Assembly (NCBI GenBank): GCA_019113825.1 | Contig: DXGR01000097.1 | Location: forward strand, 1-38,860 | Origin: Candidatus Stackebrandtia excrementipullorum | Lineage (GTDB): Bacteria; Actinomycetota; Actinomycetes; Mycobacteriales; Micromonosporaceae | Direction of reading: 5' to 3' | Length of the DNA stretch: 38,860 bases | Part shown: positions 7,730 to 14,147 of the stretch, one piece after another | Layout of the letters: each line of letters begins with the position of its first letter | Numbering within the stretch: position 1 is the first letter of the stretch | Made by a program: the position numbers and the translations under genes | The notes under the pieces: generated by a model | Seen by the model: only the letters and a program-made list of their open reading frames with translations | Told to the model about the DNA's origin: nothing | Databases searched by the model: none

Positions 7730-8374
7730 TCAGTCGGTCGTCTCCTGGGCTGTACCGTTCAGACGCTCGGCGATCGCGTTCAACGCATCGATCTCGGTCC
7801 GCTGACCGCGCACCATCGCCTCGGCCACGCGCAGAACCTCCGGGTCTTCGGTGAGCTTCACGATCCCCCTCGCCATGTGGACGCCGCCGATGTGGTGAGC
7901 CACCATCAGGTCGATGAACACCAGGTCGGCCTCGTTACCCGACAGCGAGAACAACTCGTCCAGTTCGTCATGAGTCACCATGCCCGGCATGAGGCGGCCT
8001 TCCTCGGCCCACGAGCCCATGTCCATCGACATGTCCATCCACTCCATCGGCTCGGCCGTGGAGGTTGCGGGCAGACCCCATTCGGTGAGCCAGGTCGACA
8101 TGATGCCGATCTGCCCCTGTTGAGTCAATGCGATGTCGTAGGCCAACGTTCGCAACATTTCGTCGCCGCCGTGACGGTGCAGGTGCATCGACATGGCGAC
8201 CGCCTGACCGTGGTGCAGCGACATGTCCCAGGCGAACCCCGCTTCGGCCGAGTCCACGGCCGGGTCGGGGGAAGCCCTGGTGGTCATGATGCCCACCGTC
8301 AACCCCACGGCCAAGGCCACCATCGCAGACATGACCACCGACAGGATCGGCCATGTGCTCACCGACTTACGCAT
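7730..8374 (-). CDS. DUF305 domain-containing membrane-anchored protein, 214 aa
   Basis: Residues 8-31 form an N-terminal membrane anchor (MSAMVALAVGLTVGIM). The rest is a DUF305 four-helix domain with two HH-containing motifs, MSLHHGQAVAMSMHLHRHGG and LMVAHHIGGVHMARG. It is Met/His-rich (MEWMDMSMDMG), which fits the proposal that DUF305 (ferritin-like or copper-associated) proteins bind metal at the outer face of the membrane. No function is proven for the family. It starts at ATG 8374, four bases after the stop of the DUF3105 gene. DUF3105 and DUF305 genes are regular neighbours in actinobacteria, so a joint role is likely, perhaps in metal handling or the cell envelope. Confidence 0.92.
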   Translation of the reverse strand: MRKSVSTWPILSVVMSAMVALAVGLTVGIMTTRASPDPAVDSAEAGFAWDMSLHHGQAVAMSMHLHRHGGDEMLRTLAYDIALTQQGQIGIMSTWLTEWGLPATSTAEPMEWMDMSMDMGSWAEEGRLMPGMVTHDELDELFSLSGNEADLVFIDLMVAHHIGGVHMARGIVKLTEDPEVLRVAEAMVRGQRTEIDALNAIAERLNGTAQETTD

Positions 8375-8378
8375 GTCG

Positions 8379-9347
8379 TTACCTTTCCATCCCTTCCGCC
8401 GTGATCGGTGTGTCCCCCGTGATGCTCGTGCCGCCCGAGCAGGACGCCCCGGGTTCGCGTGAAGAGGTCAACCGGTACTTGCCCGTGAACGCCGAAATGC
8501 GTTCGTCGTCGGCCGAGGTGAGCTCCAGTTGGTAACCCCACGTCGTCAACATGATCGGCGAGGTCTGCCCCGGGTAAGGGCTCATGAACGTGTAGTCGAT
8601 GCCGTTGACCTTGGCCTCCAGCTTTTTGATCTGGTCCGCGGTGACCGCGTCCGGGTTGTAGGTGAACCAGATGGCGCCGTGTTCGAGGCTGTGAACGGCG
8701 TGCTCGTTGGGGACCGGCGTCTGATAGATCTTGCCGTTGCACGTCGTCCACACCGAGTTGTGGTTCCCACCGGCGGGCGGCGACAGCTCGTAATCGAGCT
8801 TTCCCTCAAGGTGCGCGGACTCCTCGACCCACGGCGCCTCATCGACGTAGTAGTCGATGACGCCGTCGATGGGTTCATCCGGATCAATATCGGGCAGGAA
8901 CAGGAACGGCACGGCGATCAAGCCGGCGACCAGAATCACCAGACCACTCACCAACGTGATCATTCCCCAGGGCAACGGCTGTTTCGGGGCGGAGGTTTTG
9001 CGGCCCTTCTTCTTGCCTTTACCTCCCGATTTTCCGCCGGGGCGTGTTTTACCACCGGGGCGCGACTTCTGCGAACCCTGACCGAACACGGAATCGTTTT
9101 TGCCGCTTCGGCCCTTCGGGCCCGAACGTGACTTGTCGGCCTTCTTCGCTCCCGAACCGCTCGTGGACTTGTCGCTCTTGGGTTCGGCGACGTCCCCCTT
9201 GGCCGTGGTGTCGGTGTCCGTGGAGGAGGTGGCCTCATCGTTGGGCGTCGACTCGGCGGCTGTATCGGGCTCATCGGGGGTGGCGGTCTTAGCCTGCTTG
9301 GGCGCTGCGGGCTTGCCGGACCGCTGTTTCGACTTCTTTTTTGCCAT
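8379..9347 (-). CDS. DUF3105 domain-containing protein with long basic N-terminal tail, 322 aa
   Basis: Residues 1-122 are low complexity, rich in Lys, Ser, Gly, Thr and Pro (GGKGKKKGRK near the end), and must be disordered in the cytoplasm. Residues 127-152 form one membrane segment (MITLVSGLVILVAGLIAVPF). Residues about 160-322 are the extracytoplasmic DUF3105 domain, with PPAGGNHNSVWTTCNGKIY, EHAVHSLEHGAIWFTY and FMSPYPGQTSPIMLTTWGY. The conserved His residues could bind a metal. The function is unknown. Translation starts at ATG 9347, and the DUF305 gene follows after four bases on the same strand, so expression is probably coupled. Confidence 0.92.
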   Translation of the reverse strand: MAKKKSKQRSGKPAAPKQAKTATPDEPDTAAESTPNDEATSSTDTDTTAKGDVAEPKSDKSTSGSGAKKADKSRSGPKGRSGKNDSVFGQGSQKSRPGGKTRPGGKSGGKGKKKGRKTSAPKQPLPWGMITLVSGLVILVAGLIAVPFLFLPDIDPDEPIDGVIDYYVDEAPWVEESAHLEGKLDYELSPPAGGNHNSVWTTCNGKIYQTPVPNEHAVHSLEHGAIWFTYNPDAVTADQIKKLEAKVNGIDYTFMSPYPGQTSPIMLTTWGYQLELTSADDERISAFTGKYRLTSSREPGASCSGGTSITGDTPITAEGMER

Positions 9348-9537
9348 GGCGTGGGTGCCTCACGGGGACGGGGTGGTCTCGGTCGTCGGGGGCCTCCCGG
9401 GCGGGGTACCGGCGGGAAACACACTCCGGATGATAGTCGTCATCGACGCATGTCACGATCTCCGATCGCCTCGATTTCGGAAGTATCCGTAACATCACAT
9501 ACGGCGACTTTTCAACGGCACACGAATGCTCTGGGAA

Positions 9538-9574
9538 ACGCGCGCGGGACCGGGGTCACCGATCTCGCGCGCGT
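9538..9574 (-). terminator. Terminator-like hairpin after the acyl-CoA ligase gene
   Basis: ACGCGCGCG (9538-9546) and CGCGCGCGT (9566-9574) are perfectly complementary, and up to three further pairs extend the stem inward. It begins just downstream of the stop at 9580 on the minus strand. There is no clear T-run, so termination is inferred from position and stem strength. Confidence 0.5.
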
Positions 9575-9579
9575 GACGG

Positions 9580-11124
9580 TCACGCGGTCAATTCACGCTT
9601 CAAGATCTTGCCCGTCGCCGTCATCGGGAGTTCGTCGACGAACTCCACGACCCTCGGGTACTTGTAGGCGGCCATCCGACTCTTCGACCAGGCGACGAGC
9701 CCCTCGGGAGTGACCGTACCCTCGGGCGTCCGGATCACGTACGCCTTGACCTCCTCGCCCAGTGCCTCGTCTGGCACACCGATCACGGCCACGAAGCTCA
9801 CGTCGGGGTGCGTCATCAGTGTCTCTTCGACTTCACGCGGGTAGACGTTCATGCCACCCCGAATCACCATCTCCTTGAGCCGGTCCACGATATAGAGGTA
9901 ACCGTCGGCGTCCCGTTTACCGATGTCTCCGGTGCGGAACCAGCCCTCTTCGTCGAGGACCTCCGACGTTTCGGCCGGGCGGTCGAGATAGCCGGTCATG
10001 ATGTGGTGCCCTCGCAGAGCGATCTCGCCGGGTTCGTCCACGTCGGCCTCGGAGCCGTCGGGACGCGTGACCTTGGCCTGCGTTCCCCACACGGGGAACC
10101 CGACGGAACCGGGACGGCGGGGCCGGTCGGTGCGGTTGAACGTCGCCACCGGGCTCGACTCCGACAGGCCGTAACCTTCGAGGATCGGCACGCCGAAACG
10201 TTCCTCGAAACCGGTAAGAACGGCCATCGGGAGGCTCGAGCCACCGCACGCGGCCAGCCGTAGAGATTCGGCCGCCGTGCCCAGGTCGGCGCCCTCGGCG
10301 TTCTCCTGATTCAACAACGCCCAGTACATGGTGGGCACGCCAGCGAAAATCGTGACCCGCTGGCTTTTCATGAGTTCCAAAGCCGCTCCAGGCTCGAACC
10401 GGGGCATCATCACCAGGGTGGCTTCGGCCCCGAAACCCGCATTCATCTGCACGGTCTGACCAAACGAGTGGAACAGCGGCAACGCCAACAGGTGAACGTC
10501 GTGGCTTTCGACGCCGAACAGCCGGTGACAGACCTGGACGTTCTGGACCATGTTCGAGTGGCTGAGTTGCGCGCCCTTGGGCTGCCCCGTCGTCCCGGAC
10601 GTGTACAAGACAACCGCGGTATCGGTCTCGCTCGTGGCCACCGAGTCAAACGATGTGGCGGCGCCCTCGGTGAAGGCGGTCAACGTCGTACCGGTTTCCA
10701 CCTCGGCGGCCGGATCAACGGTCATCGTGACCAGAAGCCCGCAGTCGGGTGCCTCCTTGAAAGCCTCGGCAGCCCAGGCACCCATCGGAAGTTCAGGGGT
10801 GCCTTCGAAACAGAAGTACGCGGTCGCCTTCGAATCCTTGAGGTAGTACGCGATTTCGCGTGCCGTCGACAAGACGTTCAAAGGGACGACCGTGGCGCCG
10901 GTCTTCAGGACGCCGTAGTAGACAACGGGGAAAAAAGGAACGTTCGGACAGGTCAGAGCCACCCGATCGCCACGTCCGATGCCACGTCCGGCCAAGCTCG
11001 CGGCCACCGCCGAGGCCATCGCCTCAAGACGGGCATACGTAAGGCGTGTCTCGCCTGCCACGACGGCCGTGCGGTCGGGAACGCTGCGGGCCGAACCCTC
11101 TAGTAGTACGGCAAGATTCAACAT
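9580..11124 (-). CDS. Long-chain-fatty-acid--CoA ligase (AMP-binding enzyme), 514 aa
   Basis: This is an ANL-superfamily adenylate-forming enzyme. It activates a carboxylic acid, probably a fatty acid, with ATP to an acyl-AMP and transfers it to CoA. Motifs appear in order: YTSGTTGQPKGAQLSHSN (P-loop), GYGLSESSP, the RTGDIGKRDADGYLYIVDR hinge, IRGGMNVYPREVEE, and near the C-terminus MTATGKILKREL with the catalytic Lys. I take ATG 11124 (MLNLAVLLEGSA), which has GGGAG a few bases upstream. The frame extends 55 codons further but that part has no family similarity. The closest family style is the FadD/long-chain group. The exact chain-length preference cannot be read from sequence. The DUF6069 gene lies 52 bases upstream on the same strand. 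Confidence 0.92.
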   Translation of the reverse strand: MLNLAVLLEGSARSVPDRTAVVAGETRLTYARLEAMASAVAASLAGRGIGRGDRVALTCPNVPFFPVVYYGVLKTGATVVPLNVLSTAREIAYYLKDSKATAYFCFEGTPELPMGAWAAEAFKEAPDCGLLVTMTVDPAAEVETGTTLTAFTEGAATSFDSVATSETDTAVVLYTSGTTGQPKGAQLSHSNMVQNVQVCHRLFGVESHDVHLLALPLFHSFGQTVQMNAGFGAEATLVMMPRFEPGAALELMKSQRVTIFAGVPTMYWALLNQENAEGADLGTAAESLRLAACGGSSLPMAVLTGFEERFGVPILEGYGLSESSPVATFNRTDRPRRPGSVGFPVWGTQAKVTRPDGSEADVDEPGEIALRGHHIMTGYLDRPAETSEVLDEEGWFRTGDIGKRDADGYLYIVDRLKEMVIRGGMNVYPREVEETLMTHPDVSFVAVIGVPDEALGEEVKAYVIRTPEGTVTPEGLVAWSKSRMAAYKYPRVVEFVDELPMTATGKILKRELTA

Positions 11125-11176
11125 GATCGACTCCCTAACGGTTGTCGATCTATCCTTACACCAAACGTGCGGTGCG

Positions 11177-11737
11177 TCACATGGCGTTCGGCGGGTAATA
11201 ACCGGCGACCACGTCACCTCGGCTGTTGTACACCACGGCCGACCCGCCGACCGGTCCGAGAATCGACATGAGCGCCGCGCCGGCCACAAGGTTGATCGCC
11301 GCTGTGGCGACCTGGGCGTCGAGTTCGGCGGCGAAGGTGAACGGCAACAGCACCGCCACCGCCGTCACCAGAACGCAGATCCAATAGAAAAACTGCATCG
11401 GCCGGGGCATGAACAACAAAAACAAGTGCAGCAACGCGGTGGCCGCGATGGTGATGACCGCGCCTGCCAACGCATACGTTGTGGTCGTGGCCGTGCCGTA
11501 AGCACCCGCCCCTTCGGCGGCAAGAACCGGTATCTGAAAAATCCCGCGGACCAACATGACCCCGACGACGATGACCAGAGCGACCACGATCGCGGTCCCC
11601 ACACCACCGGCCCACAAACGACCACCGTTGACGTTGACGGTGCGCCGCGGTGACGGCTGCTCGAAGTCTTGAGACGGTATGCGTTGGGTGGGCGGTGTCG
11701 GGCGTGCCCGACCGGCGCCGTACACGGGTTCAGACAT
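11177..11737 (-). CDS. DUF6069 family membrane protein, 186 aa
   Basis: A cytoplasmic, Pro/Arg-rich N-terminus of about 38 residues is followed by four hydrophobic segments: GTAIVVALVIVVGVMLVRGI, AGAVITIAATALLHLFLLF, WICVLVTAVAVLLPFTFAAE, and VATAAINLVAGAALMSIL. The length and four-helix layout match actinobacterial DUF6069 proteins, which have no known function. The gene ends 52 bases before the acyl-CoA ligase start on the same strand, so they may share a transcript. Nothing suggests a common pathway. Confidence 0.85.
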   Translation of the reverse strand: MSEPVYGAGRARPTPPTQRIPSQDFEQPSPRRTVNVNGGRLWAGGVGTAIVVALVIVVGVMLVRGIFQIPVLAAEGAGAYGTATTTTYALAGAVITIAATALLHLFLLFMPRPMQFFYWICVLVTAVAVLLPFTFAAELDAQVATAAINLVAGAALMSILGPVGGSAVVYNSRGDVVAGYYPPNAM

Positions 11738-11802
11738 AACGTGACGTTACCCGCATTCTCAGGCTTGAAACGCGCACTTCGCAACAGCCCGAGGCGCTCG
11801 TT

Positions 11803-11964
11803 TCACTCCCAGTGAGGCGGCCGGTCCTCGTGGTACCGAGCCTCGTCGGCTGCCCGGGACGTCCGGTGTTCTCCCCACCCGGCGTCGGTGTCGTCGCGTG
11901 TCTGGTCGGGCAAGATCTCCAGATCGTCGGTCAGCACCACTTCACGGTCCTCGTCGTGCCTCAC
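11803..11964 (-). CDS. Small conserved acidic protein, 53 aa
   Basis: A GTG at 11964 has an excellent ribosome-binding site (GTGGAGGACGACC before it) and opens a 53-codon frame ending with TGA at 11803. The protein begins MRHDEDREVVLTDDLEILP and continues DQTRDDTDAGWGEH, ending RPPHWE. From memory, small actinobacterial proteins with 'LP-Q-T-DDTD-GWGE' and a C-terminal 'RPPHW' recur as hypothetical proteins. I know no function for them. The composition (Asp, Glu, Arg, few hydrophobics) suggests a disordered cytosolic peptide that gains structure with a partner. It is divergent from the two-gene methyltransferase operon beginning at 12037, with 72 bases between the starts. Confidence 0.75.
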   Translation of the reverse strand: MRHDEDREVVLTDDLEILPDQTRDDTDAGWGEHRTSRAADEARYHEDRPPHWE

Positions 11965-12036
11965 GGTCGTCCTCCACGATGTTGCTCTACGTCTCCTCGA
12001 TTATGCCGTTTGCCGAAGAGTGGAAGACTGGCCGGT

Positions 12037-13038
12037 GTGCTGAGCGGAGTTGACGTCTTGAAGGCCCTGTGCCGTCGCTACGCCTTCGGCGATGTTCGGG
12101 CACTGTTGTCGGGGTTCGACCTGCCCGAGGCGGACTGGAAACGGCTGCGTCGCCTATGTCTGTTCGGTCAACGGCTGCTGGAGCTCGATGCCGAGGATTT
12201 CGACATGTCGGACGTCGACGCGGGCGGCCCGGCGTACGAACAGTTGGTCGAGCGAGCCCGACTGTGCCGCATCCCGCAGGACCCGCGCGAACCGAACCGT
12301 GGGGCGTTGGACAGCATGCGGCCCGCATACGAACTGCTGCTCGAGGTGATGGCGGCCCAGCACAGACGTCACGACATGGCCGGGCTGGTGGCCACCGCCC
12401 ACATGATCGGCGAGTATCTGCCGATCCTGGTGTGGGAACCGGTGTGGGGCCACGCGGCCGACCCGAGACGCATCGGCCGCGACGTCGCCGGTCGGGACAG
12501 CAGATTCGGTAAAAACGACAGGCCCTGCGCACATCGCCGCCTCGACCGGAAAGCGGCCACTCGTGTCCTGCGTATCCACCAGGCGCCGGCGGAGGGCTGG
12601 CGGGCCTACCTCGATCGTCAGCACAGCCACGTCGCGCATGCCATCGGTGTTTGCGCCGCCGAATGCCGCGACCAGTGCAGCACGGTGACACGTGTCGAAG
12701 AACCGACCCGCAGCCACATCGCCGAACGCGCGGCGGTGGCGATCGCGTTCGAGGAGAGCGCCCTGGTCAGATTGCGGCATGCGGCACCGGTCGGCCACGG
12801 GTTCGGGGTCCCCAGTGAGGACGAGGTCGCACGCACCTGGGACCGTGTTCGTGTTCTCATCGGCCAACGCGGCCTGGTCGGCAAAGCCGCCTTGGAGGAG
12901 GACGGTTTCTGCCTGCCGGGCCTGCCAAGCCTCATTTCGGCGATCGCCGGGCAGAGCGTACAACCGTCCACGTTGTTGTACGAGACCGCCGAACTCACCA
13001 TCAGCAAGCTGACAGAGGCCCTGGAGGGCAGTCGATGA
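12037..13038 (+). CDS. Protein of unknown function coupled to a methyltransferase gene, 333 aa
   Basis: I recognise no family. I chose GTG 12037 because GGAAG lies about 10 bases upstream and the family-like sequence begins there (LSGVDVLKALCRRYAFGDV). Upstream in-frame codons overlap the promoter region and the divergent small gene. The protein is soluble and mostly helical. In the middle it has a Cys-rich stretch (CAAECRDQC) that could bind a metal or form disulfides. Its stop codon overlaps the ATG of the next gene as ATGA, so translation of the two is coupled and the products probably work together or in a fixed ratio. A role with the methyltransferase, in RNA or small-molecule modification, is inference. 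Confidence 0.75.
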   Translation: MLSGVDVLKALCRRYAFGDVRALLSGFDLPEADWKRLRRLCLFGQRLLELDAEDFDMSDVDAGGPAYEQLVERARLCRIPQDPREPNRGALDSMRPAYELLLEVMAAQHRRHDMAGLVATAHMIGEYLPILVWEPVWGHAADPRRIGRDVAGRDSRFGKNDRPCAHRRLDRKAATRVLRIHQAPAEGWRAYLDRQHSHVAHAIGVCAAECRDQCSTVTRVEEPTRSHIAERAAVAIAFEESALVRLRHAAPVGHGFGVPSEDEVARTWDRVRVLIGQRGLVGKAALEEDGFCLPGLPSLISAIAGQSVQPSTLLYETAELTISKLTEALEGSR

Positions 13039-14147
13039 ACGATCTTGATGCGGTGGCCACGGCCATGTCGGCGCCGGAGACTCTGGTTCGGGCGATCGGG
13101 TCGGGCAGCCGCCAAGGCGCCACGCCACGGTTTCGTAAAGTGGAACTGCGGCCGGTGCGCATCAAAAACGACGTCCGGCTGCAGATCACCCGGCACGATG
13201 AACACCGCCCGACGGTAAGCAACGTGGACTTCCCGGCGACCGATGAACTGTCGGAGCTGTTGGCCGAACCGTATCGCCACTGGCTGGTCGAAACCGTCGA
13301 CGCGACACTGCAACTGCGGTTCACCAAACGCGGCAAAACACAACTGCACACCGCTCCCGCTTCACGAACCCAACGCCTCGAACACGACAGGGTGGCACCC
13401 CACCTCATCGCCGCCGACGACACGTTGTTCGGTGTGCTGGGTGCGTCGGCAGCGAAGCGGCGTCAGGTCGACGCGTTCCTGCGTGCCGTCGAAGGTGCAA
13501 CACGTGATCTGGCCGAGACCGCGACGGTCGTCGACCTGGGATGCGGCAATGCCTATCTGACCTTCGCCATGCACCGGCACCTCGTGCAGTCCGGGTACGA
13601 GAGCCGAACGATCGGCGTGGACGTGAGAGAGGATCAACGCGACCGCAACACGCGGTTGGCCGGGCAGTTGGGGTGGAGCGACGACATGCGGTTCGTCGCC
13701 GGATCGATCGCCGACGTGGAATTGCCGTCGGCGGACATCGTGCTCGCACTGCACGCCTGAGACACCGCCACCGACGATGCTCTTGCCCGGGGCGTACGCC
13801 TGGGTGCTCGCCACATCTTCGCCGCGCCGTGCTGTCACCACGACATCGCCGCACAACTGCGTGGCGGGACGGCCCCCGCGGGTTATCGTCCGCTGGTCGG
13901 CGACGGGATCCTGCGGGAACGGTTCGCGGACGTTCTCACCGACACACTGCGGGCTCAACTATTGCGGATGAACGACTACCGCGTCGACGTCGTGGAGTTC
14001 ATCGACTCGGCACACACTCCTCGTAACACACTCATCAGGGCGACCCGAACCGACCATGCCGACACCGGGCGGGCCGGTTCCGACTATGAACGGCTTGTGG
14101 CCGAGTGGAACGTGACACCGGCATTGGCGCGACTCCTCGACTCCTGA
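13035..14147 (+). pseudogene. SAM-dependent methyltransferase gene interrupted by one in-frame TGA
   Basis: The frame runs 371 codons from ATG 13035 to TGA 14145 with a single interruption, TGA at 13758-13760 (codon 242). Upstream lie a basic N-terminal domain and the SAM-binding motif VVDLGCGNAYLTF (residues 165-177). Downstream the same frame continues without any defect: DTATDDALARGVRLG, then PCCHHDIAAQL (C266, C267), GILRERFADVLTDTLRAQLL and VDVVEFIDSAHTPRNTLIRA. This is the METTL25-like/Methyltransf_32 type of class I methyltransferase. In that family I recall ALHACDTATDDAL at the break, so TGA replaces a conserved Cys codon. Possible explanations are a recent nonsense mutation, a sequencing error, or UGA recoding. 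If read as stop, a 241-aa product lacking the PCCHHD motif results. The gene is ATGA-coupled to the preceding one. Confidence 0.8.
13758..13760 (+). other. In-frame TGA at a conserved cysteine position
   Basis: The codon lies between ...IVLALHA and DTATDDALARG. One base change from TGC or TGT produces it. A short hairpin can be drawn just downstream at 13786-13804 (CCC/GGG and GGC/GCC arms, loop GTAC at 13794-13797, 34-37 bases after the TGA). A bacterial SECIS apical loop usually lies about 16-37 bases after the UGA, so this is at the far edge and weak in such GC-rich DNA. Confidence 0.7.

Follow-up and report, generated by a model that had tools for sequence, protein, structure and literature searches.

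An in-frame TGA at a conserved cysteine codon of a Methyltransf_32 gene in a Stackebrandtia genome with selenocysteine genes: probable truncation, with selenocysteine as the less likely reading

SAM methyltransferases that contain selenocysteine (Sec) have been described. Among the 119 families and subfamilies in Table 1 of PMC13188914 are the arsenite methyltransferase (NF008823), in which Sec lies in a UxxG motif, MduS (PF13649), with a CxxU motif, and an entry named methyltransferase/UXPK-star; none of the entries in that table stands under Methyltransf_32. With the first two of these examples, Sec in a methyltransferase would have precedents. PMC1794560 reports that, in most families where selenoproteins are rare and Cys homologues widespread, Sec was acquired from a Cys ancestor by organisms already able to decode Sec. 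On that account, a step from Cys to Sec is plausible in principle.

The window, that is, the whole stretch of 38,860 nucleotides of Candidatus Stackebrandtia excrementipullorum analysed here, contains a gene for a SAM-dependent methyltransferase at 13035..14147 on the + strand, the 242nd codon of which is TGA. The protein resembles Methyltransf_32 (PF13679) in its whole domain, its class I fold matches and the HA-DTATD surroundings of codon 242. It differs from the Methyltransf_32 relatives examined in that they have Cys at this codon, whereas the window copy has TGA. Against NF008823 the window protein reached 14 bits (E 0.026) with a cut-off of 263, and it thus belongs to another family. The setting of the UGA is also different: HA(U)DTATD in the window, UxxG in arsenite methyltransferase and CxxU in MduS. 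No description of a Methyltransf_32 selenoprotein was found in the titles and abstract openings of the literature searched.

The methyltransferase gene and codon 242 in its relatives

Re-reading of the frame from 13035 to 14147 gave exactly two stops, the TGA of codon 242 (13758..13760, + strand) and the terminal TGA of codon 371 (14145-14147), as expected from an earlier note on this DNA, which had described a frame with one defect. If codon 242 is read, the gene comprises 370 codons and a stop; if translation stops there, the product has 241 amino acids. The 128 sense codons after the TGA (13761..14144, + strand) retain both PCCHHD and VEFIDSAHTPRN, contain no further stop or frameshift, as the note had also stated, and show no sign of decay in comparison with sister species. 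The lesion is a single TGA in an otherwise intact gene. In Pfam, the read-through protein gave one match to Methyltransf_32 (residues 141-274, 116.6 bits, cut-off 27), while the part before the TGA scored 66.5 bits and the part after it 26.3 bits, just under the cut-off. The continuity across the TGA is therefore not due to chance. Restart of translation past codon 242 was considered and rejected: the first in-frame ATG, GTG or TTG after the TGA is at codon 310, so that a restart just past the stop is unlikely. A homologue search of the own genome returned a single match, with no second copy of the methyltransferase.

An ORF of 408 amino acids at 11812..13038 (+ strand) overlaps the start of the methyltransferase gene via ATGA and is its neighbour in both sister genomes as well. 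It had no Pfam match at E 0.001. This conserved ORF is possibly a functional partner of the methyltransferase.

Codon 242 was read in 117 homologous loci (30 from the same family, 80 more, two re-fetched sister regions and five from a phylum search): 104 have TGC, 12 have TGT and one, the window, has TGA. The 116 Cys loci, in which two sister loci are counted twice, represent 106 distinct downstream sequences. The earlier note had given ALHACDTATD as a family pattern and placed the TGA at its Cys. This placement was borne out by the alignment, in which Cys is present in 19 of 19 relatives, ALHACDTATD in nearly all of them and HACDTATD in all. The window gene thus has a TGA aligned with a conserved Cys and a frame open on both sides, which is one of the features looked for in a selenoprotein. 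Its exact position at the invariant Cys and the absence of decay downstream both argue for Sec.

The distribution of the TGA points the other way. An exact pattern for the TGA form, degenerate at wobble sites, matched the own genome only among 354 genomes of the family and 394 of the class, totals that take in genomes without the gene; the form is thus absent from the other 353 and 393. Other same-family matches, beyond the set in which codon 242 was read, contain no stop inside. In a phylum search of 396 genomes, 30 had a protein match, and an internal stop was again seen in the own genome only. The TGA is therefore private to this genome as far as searched. TGA-bearing homologues in other organisms, which PMC13188914 uses as a filter for selenoproteins, were not found for the window gene. 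The gene is also dispensable, since 14 of 73 same-family genomes, counted from a listing, had no match. The Cys in 116 of 117 loci, the private TGA and the dispensability of the gene favor a truncating change over Sec.

The consequence of such a change can be seen from a predicted structure. For an AlphaFold model based on 20 sequences (mean pLDDT 90.8, pTM 0.68), the 50 best PDB matches listed in a fold search are all class I SAM methyltransferases. In the model, residue 242 is directly C-terminal to the strand 235-241, and PCCHHD is at the end of the strand 260-265. Residue 242 is thus located where the fourth strand of the SAM domain ends, the usual location of motif IV. A one-base change of the Cys codon 242 to TGA in the otherwise intact gene would end translation at that codon, where the ribosome is expected to stop. 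The 241-residue product would be devoid of everything past the fourth domain strand. With PCCHHD and the C-terminal part missing, the gene would be freshly broken.

Selenocysteine genes and a neighboring membrane protein family

The earlier note had proposed a search for selA, selB, selC and selD, and all four are present in the genome. They form a cluster, selD-selC-selA-selB, at 8362-12591 of one contig (C7). The profile scores are above the cut-offs for selB (267.4 bits, cut-off 242.25), selA (340.7) and selD (366), and the tRNA-Sec (69.3 bits) has a TCA anticodon. The complete set expected of a genome with a selenoprotein is therefore in place. The note had held that recoding would be refuted if the genome had no Sec machinery and close relatives all had Cys. 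Cys was indeed found in every relative examined; the lack of machinery did not hold, as its genes were found.

A Sec formate dehydrogenase could have accounted for the sel genes; this was rejected, because the FDH model gave at best 47 bits with a cut-off of 814, in a match free of stops. The SelD of this genome is of the Cys type, with Cys where the UxxK motif, a known Sec motif of SelD (PMC13188914, Table 1), has Sec. According to PMC1794560, every selenoproteome includes FdhA or SelD. The sel cluster without a Sec formate dehydrogenase and with a Cys-type SelD is an apparent exception to that statement as worded there.

About 2.7 kb from selD, at 15333-16085 of contig C7, is a gene for a membrane protein with TGA at codon 54. 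This TGA is also present in both sister genomes with Sec machinery. In a search of 200 genomes of the family, an internal TGA was present in each of the 24 strong matches (E at most 2.2e-23), and in the 21 strong copies that were read it was at the aligned codon in every case. Ten weaker matches (E 4e-4 or above) were free of stops, and the nine that were read have His at that codon; these ten are held to be unrelated to the family. Most copies share the motif G(Y/F)xxSGS(V/T)U(S/T)xNSA. The neighboring genes, in the sister genomes as well, encode MauE (PF07291), thioredoxin-like and peptidoglycan-binding proteins. In two conserved-TGA screens, both noisy, the membrane gene was visible among the matches listed.

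The membrane protein had no match at E 0.1 to Pfam and NCBIfam models. A fold search gave nothing significant, with CcdA (5vkv, E 0.14) third in the list. There is no corresponding entry among the 119 families and subfamilies in Table 1 of PMC13188914, and no description was found in the literature searched at the level of listings. The membrane protein is probably an undescribed selenoprotein.

Distant relatives of the membrane protein were seen phylum-wide at 19 loci (L209-L227, the own locus excluded) with a motif like WSPUGxSM, which often lies before the aligned stretch and was placed by eye: 14 have TGA, three have Cys (L211, L215, L224) and two were unreadable (L209, L219). The three Cys loci indicate that the membrane family has remote Cys forms, the usual Sec/Cys pattern.

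The genus is split with respect to these genes. Two sister genomes (G001, G003) have selA, selB, selD and the membrane selenoprotein, while in two others (G002, G004) nothing of selB rank was found and the membrane protein had no match. The Sec system seems to have been gained or lost as a unit within the genus.

The sel genes and the conserved, TGA-bearing membrane gene make recoding possible in this genome. Codon 242 would then be Sec, inserted through SelB and a hairpin at 13785-13805 to give a 370-residue selenoenzyme, by an exchange of Cys for Sec in this species alone. We consider this reading unlikely, though a serious candidate. The location of selA, selB, selD and the tRNA-Sec on one contig and the neighboring membrane family, with its conserved TGA and shared SECIS-like hairpin, support it, and the apparent decoding of UGA as Sec at another place in the genome counts against a simple truncation. 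On the other hand, codon 242 is TGC in two sister species that carry selA, selB, selD, the tRNA-Sec and the membrane selenoprotein. That sisters with the same machinery keep Cys, and that TGA was found in no second genome among those searched, speaks for truncation and against Sec.

The hairpin after the internal TGA

A hairpin shared by the 21 membrane-family copies served as the reference. It lies 26-44 bases past the TGA, with five to seven of seven pairs formed and a G at base 34 (G34) in all 21. Its covariation is modest: 88.4% of the cells are paired, three of the seven pairs are invariant, and the covariation score is equaled or exceeded by 17 of 500 shuffles. The predicted minimum-energy fold is another structure in several of the copies. 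The shared hairpin is taken as the predicted SECIS of the lineage.

The earlier note had pointed to a weak hairpin with a G in its loop downstream of codon 242. Such a hairpin is present as a putative SECIS-like element at 13785..13805 (+ strand), 25-45 bases after the TGA, with the loop G at base 34 (13794), and it is in the register of the lineage; it is not clearly better than the hairpins of the Cys orthologues. It can be drawn in two alternative folds: the loop is GUAC in one and has seven bases, with the same G among them, in the other. In the lineage register it has six of the seven stem pairs (26-31 with 39-44), an extra pair 25-45 and G34, within the five to seven pairs of the references. 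The closing pair C32-G38, found in 21 of 21 references, is missing and replaced by G-G, which argues against Sec. Its energy in simplified bSECIS scoring, -6.9 kcal/mol, is inside the reference range of -12.2 to -4.2, and seven of the 21 references are weaker. The register, the loop G and the energy are points in favor of Sec.

The bSECIS consensus in PMC13188914 has a loop of 3-9 nt, a stem of 4-16 bp, a distance of 16-37 nt after the UGA, a G as one of the two leading loop bases and an MFE of -7.5 kcal/mol or lower. The window hairpin can agree with it in loop, stem, G and spacing. It differs in energy, at -6.9 against the limit of -7.5, a limit that under the simplified scoring 10 of the 21 references also miss and 4.9% of random codons of this genome pass.

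How exceptional the hairpin is depends on the comparison. At least six pairs together with G34 occur at just 83 of 11,878 codon positions (0.7%) in the genes of the window and contig C7, and pairs 25-31 all formed with G34 at four of the 11,878, by a criterion chosen after the window was seen. Six contiguous pairs with G34 were found in none of the 106 distinct Cys orthologues. The first and the last of these counts speak against a truncation. By the two other counts, the hairpin is unexceptional: six pairs and G34 are present in 13 of the 106 Cys orthologues, and in the simplified scoring 22 of the 106 have a bSECIS-like hairpin of equal or greater stability. Such a hairpin also follows 6.3% of 4000 codons drawn at random from this genome and 6.5% of 993 of its Cys codons. 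This share of the orthologues, 12-21%, weakens the Sec reading and suits a truncation. The region also folds no better than shuffles (z -0.54 to 1.11 for five fragments), a further point against Sec, and fold stability was discarded as a proof of a SECIS.

Synonymous shuffles equaled the window hairpin in 5.7% of cases. The reference elements themselves have a median of 12%, so that the window compares well with them and the figure has been counted for Sec. A test with such a reference median, however, cannot separate the cases, and the 5.7% is weak either way. This figure, and the presence of G34 in 102 of 106 Cys orthologues, suggest that the coding sequence predisposes to the hairpin. We tentatively keep, as an improbable reading, that the gene is a selenoprotein at birth, with Sec for Cys in one species and a hairpin half-provided beforehand by the protein sequence, since the orthologues have not only G34 but also many of the stem pairs.

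Age of the stop and the preferred explanation

Identity to the closest sister is 68.5% before the TGA and 77.8% after it. When three further genomes from the genus are used for comparison, the residues before the TGA include 19 changes specific to the window, 22 specific to the sister and 35 undecided, and those after it five, seven and 16, respectively. The gene shows one mark of a recent pseudogene, a disabling change in an otherwise intact gene, without the other, accelerated change past the lesion. Conservation past the TGA is no lower than ahead of it, which in itself counts against truncation. A lack of excess change is what would be expected of a young lesion, however. Without decay past the TGA, the stop is either young or read.

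The stop might also be read without Sec. Leaky read-through of the UGA by a near-cognate tRNA would yield some full-length enzyme, and the intact and conserved downstream frame is consistent with this. Nothing specific speaks for it. The leaky base following UGA is C, but here it is G, and read-through leaves the position of the stop at an invariant Cys unexplained. We regard leaky read-through as very improbable.

The position is also a difficulty for an accidental truncation. A random nonsense change would strike one of the four Cys codons of the gene in 3-5% of cases, and codon 242 in only about 1% (0.7-1.3%). A GNAT acetyltransferase gene in the same assembly (contig C148:18404) is interrupted by one TAG that falls centrally within its Pfam domain, and single-stop genes or base-call errors thus exist in this assembly, a point in favor of a truncating change. 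Interrupted genes were scanned for by codon bias in about 0.8 Mb including the window, which gave 43 and 31 rows. In the scan of 43 rows, 22 were viewed; the other 21 had a start codon within eight codons of the stop. In the scan of 31 rows, every row was viewed. Ten sequences from the rows were looked at and one was tested with Pfam, the rest being taken as gene ends by eye. The scan picked up the window gene and the membrane selenoprotein again; the GNAT gene was the sole extra case recognised among the rows listed. Two earlier scorings by codon bias had been discarded: the first returned 0 rows, and the second 54 rows that were mostly shadow-frame-like, its filter having removed the window gene.

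This result suggests about five such interrupted genes per genome, with a wide error. Taken with the 3-5% share of the Cys codons, an accidental stop at a Cys codon would be found in perhaps one in five such genomes, and would not be rare across many.

The earlier note had left the choice between nonsense mutation and recoding unmade. The machinery for Sec does exist, so that recoding stands as a candidate, but the balance of the evidence leans towards a nonsense change. In our judgement, the TGA probably stems from one base change of recent date, or from a base-call error, and cuts the enzyme short. Its likeliest form, a real recent nonsense mutation in this strain, has by itself close to an even chance. 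A base-call error in the 149-contig draft comes next and is, taken alone, rather doubtful. The grades given to these two forms, to Sec and to leaky read-through are judgements and not computed posteriors.

In the case of truncation, the gene is a young pseudogene of an ordinary kind and a warning that, even in a Sec-decoding genome, a stop in place of an invariant Cys is no proof of Sec. If codon 242 is recoded, the gene would represent a new family of selenoproteins and extend the selenoproteome by a family of methyltransferases; it would also provide a datable gain of Sec from Cys between species of one genus, with the Cys sisters as built-in controls. The membrane selenoprotein family is a stronger discovery than the TGA of the window. 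Either way, the analysis brings to light a Sec system for which no Sec formate dehydrogenase was found; it apparently serves a conserved membrane selenoprotein that has no counterpart in the libraries and lists searched.
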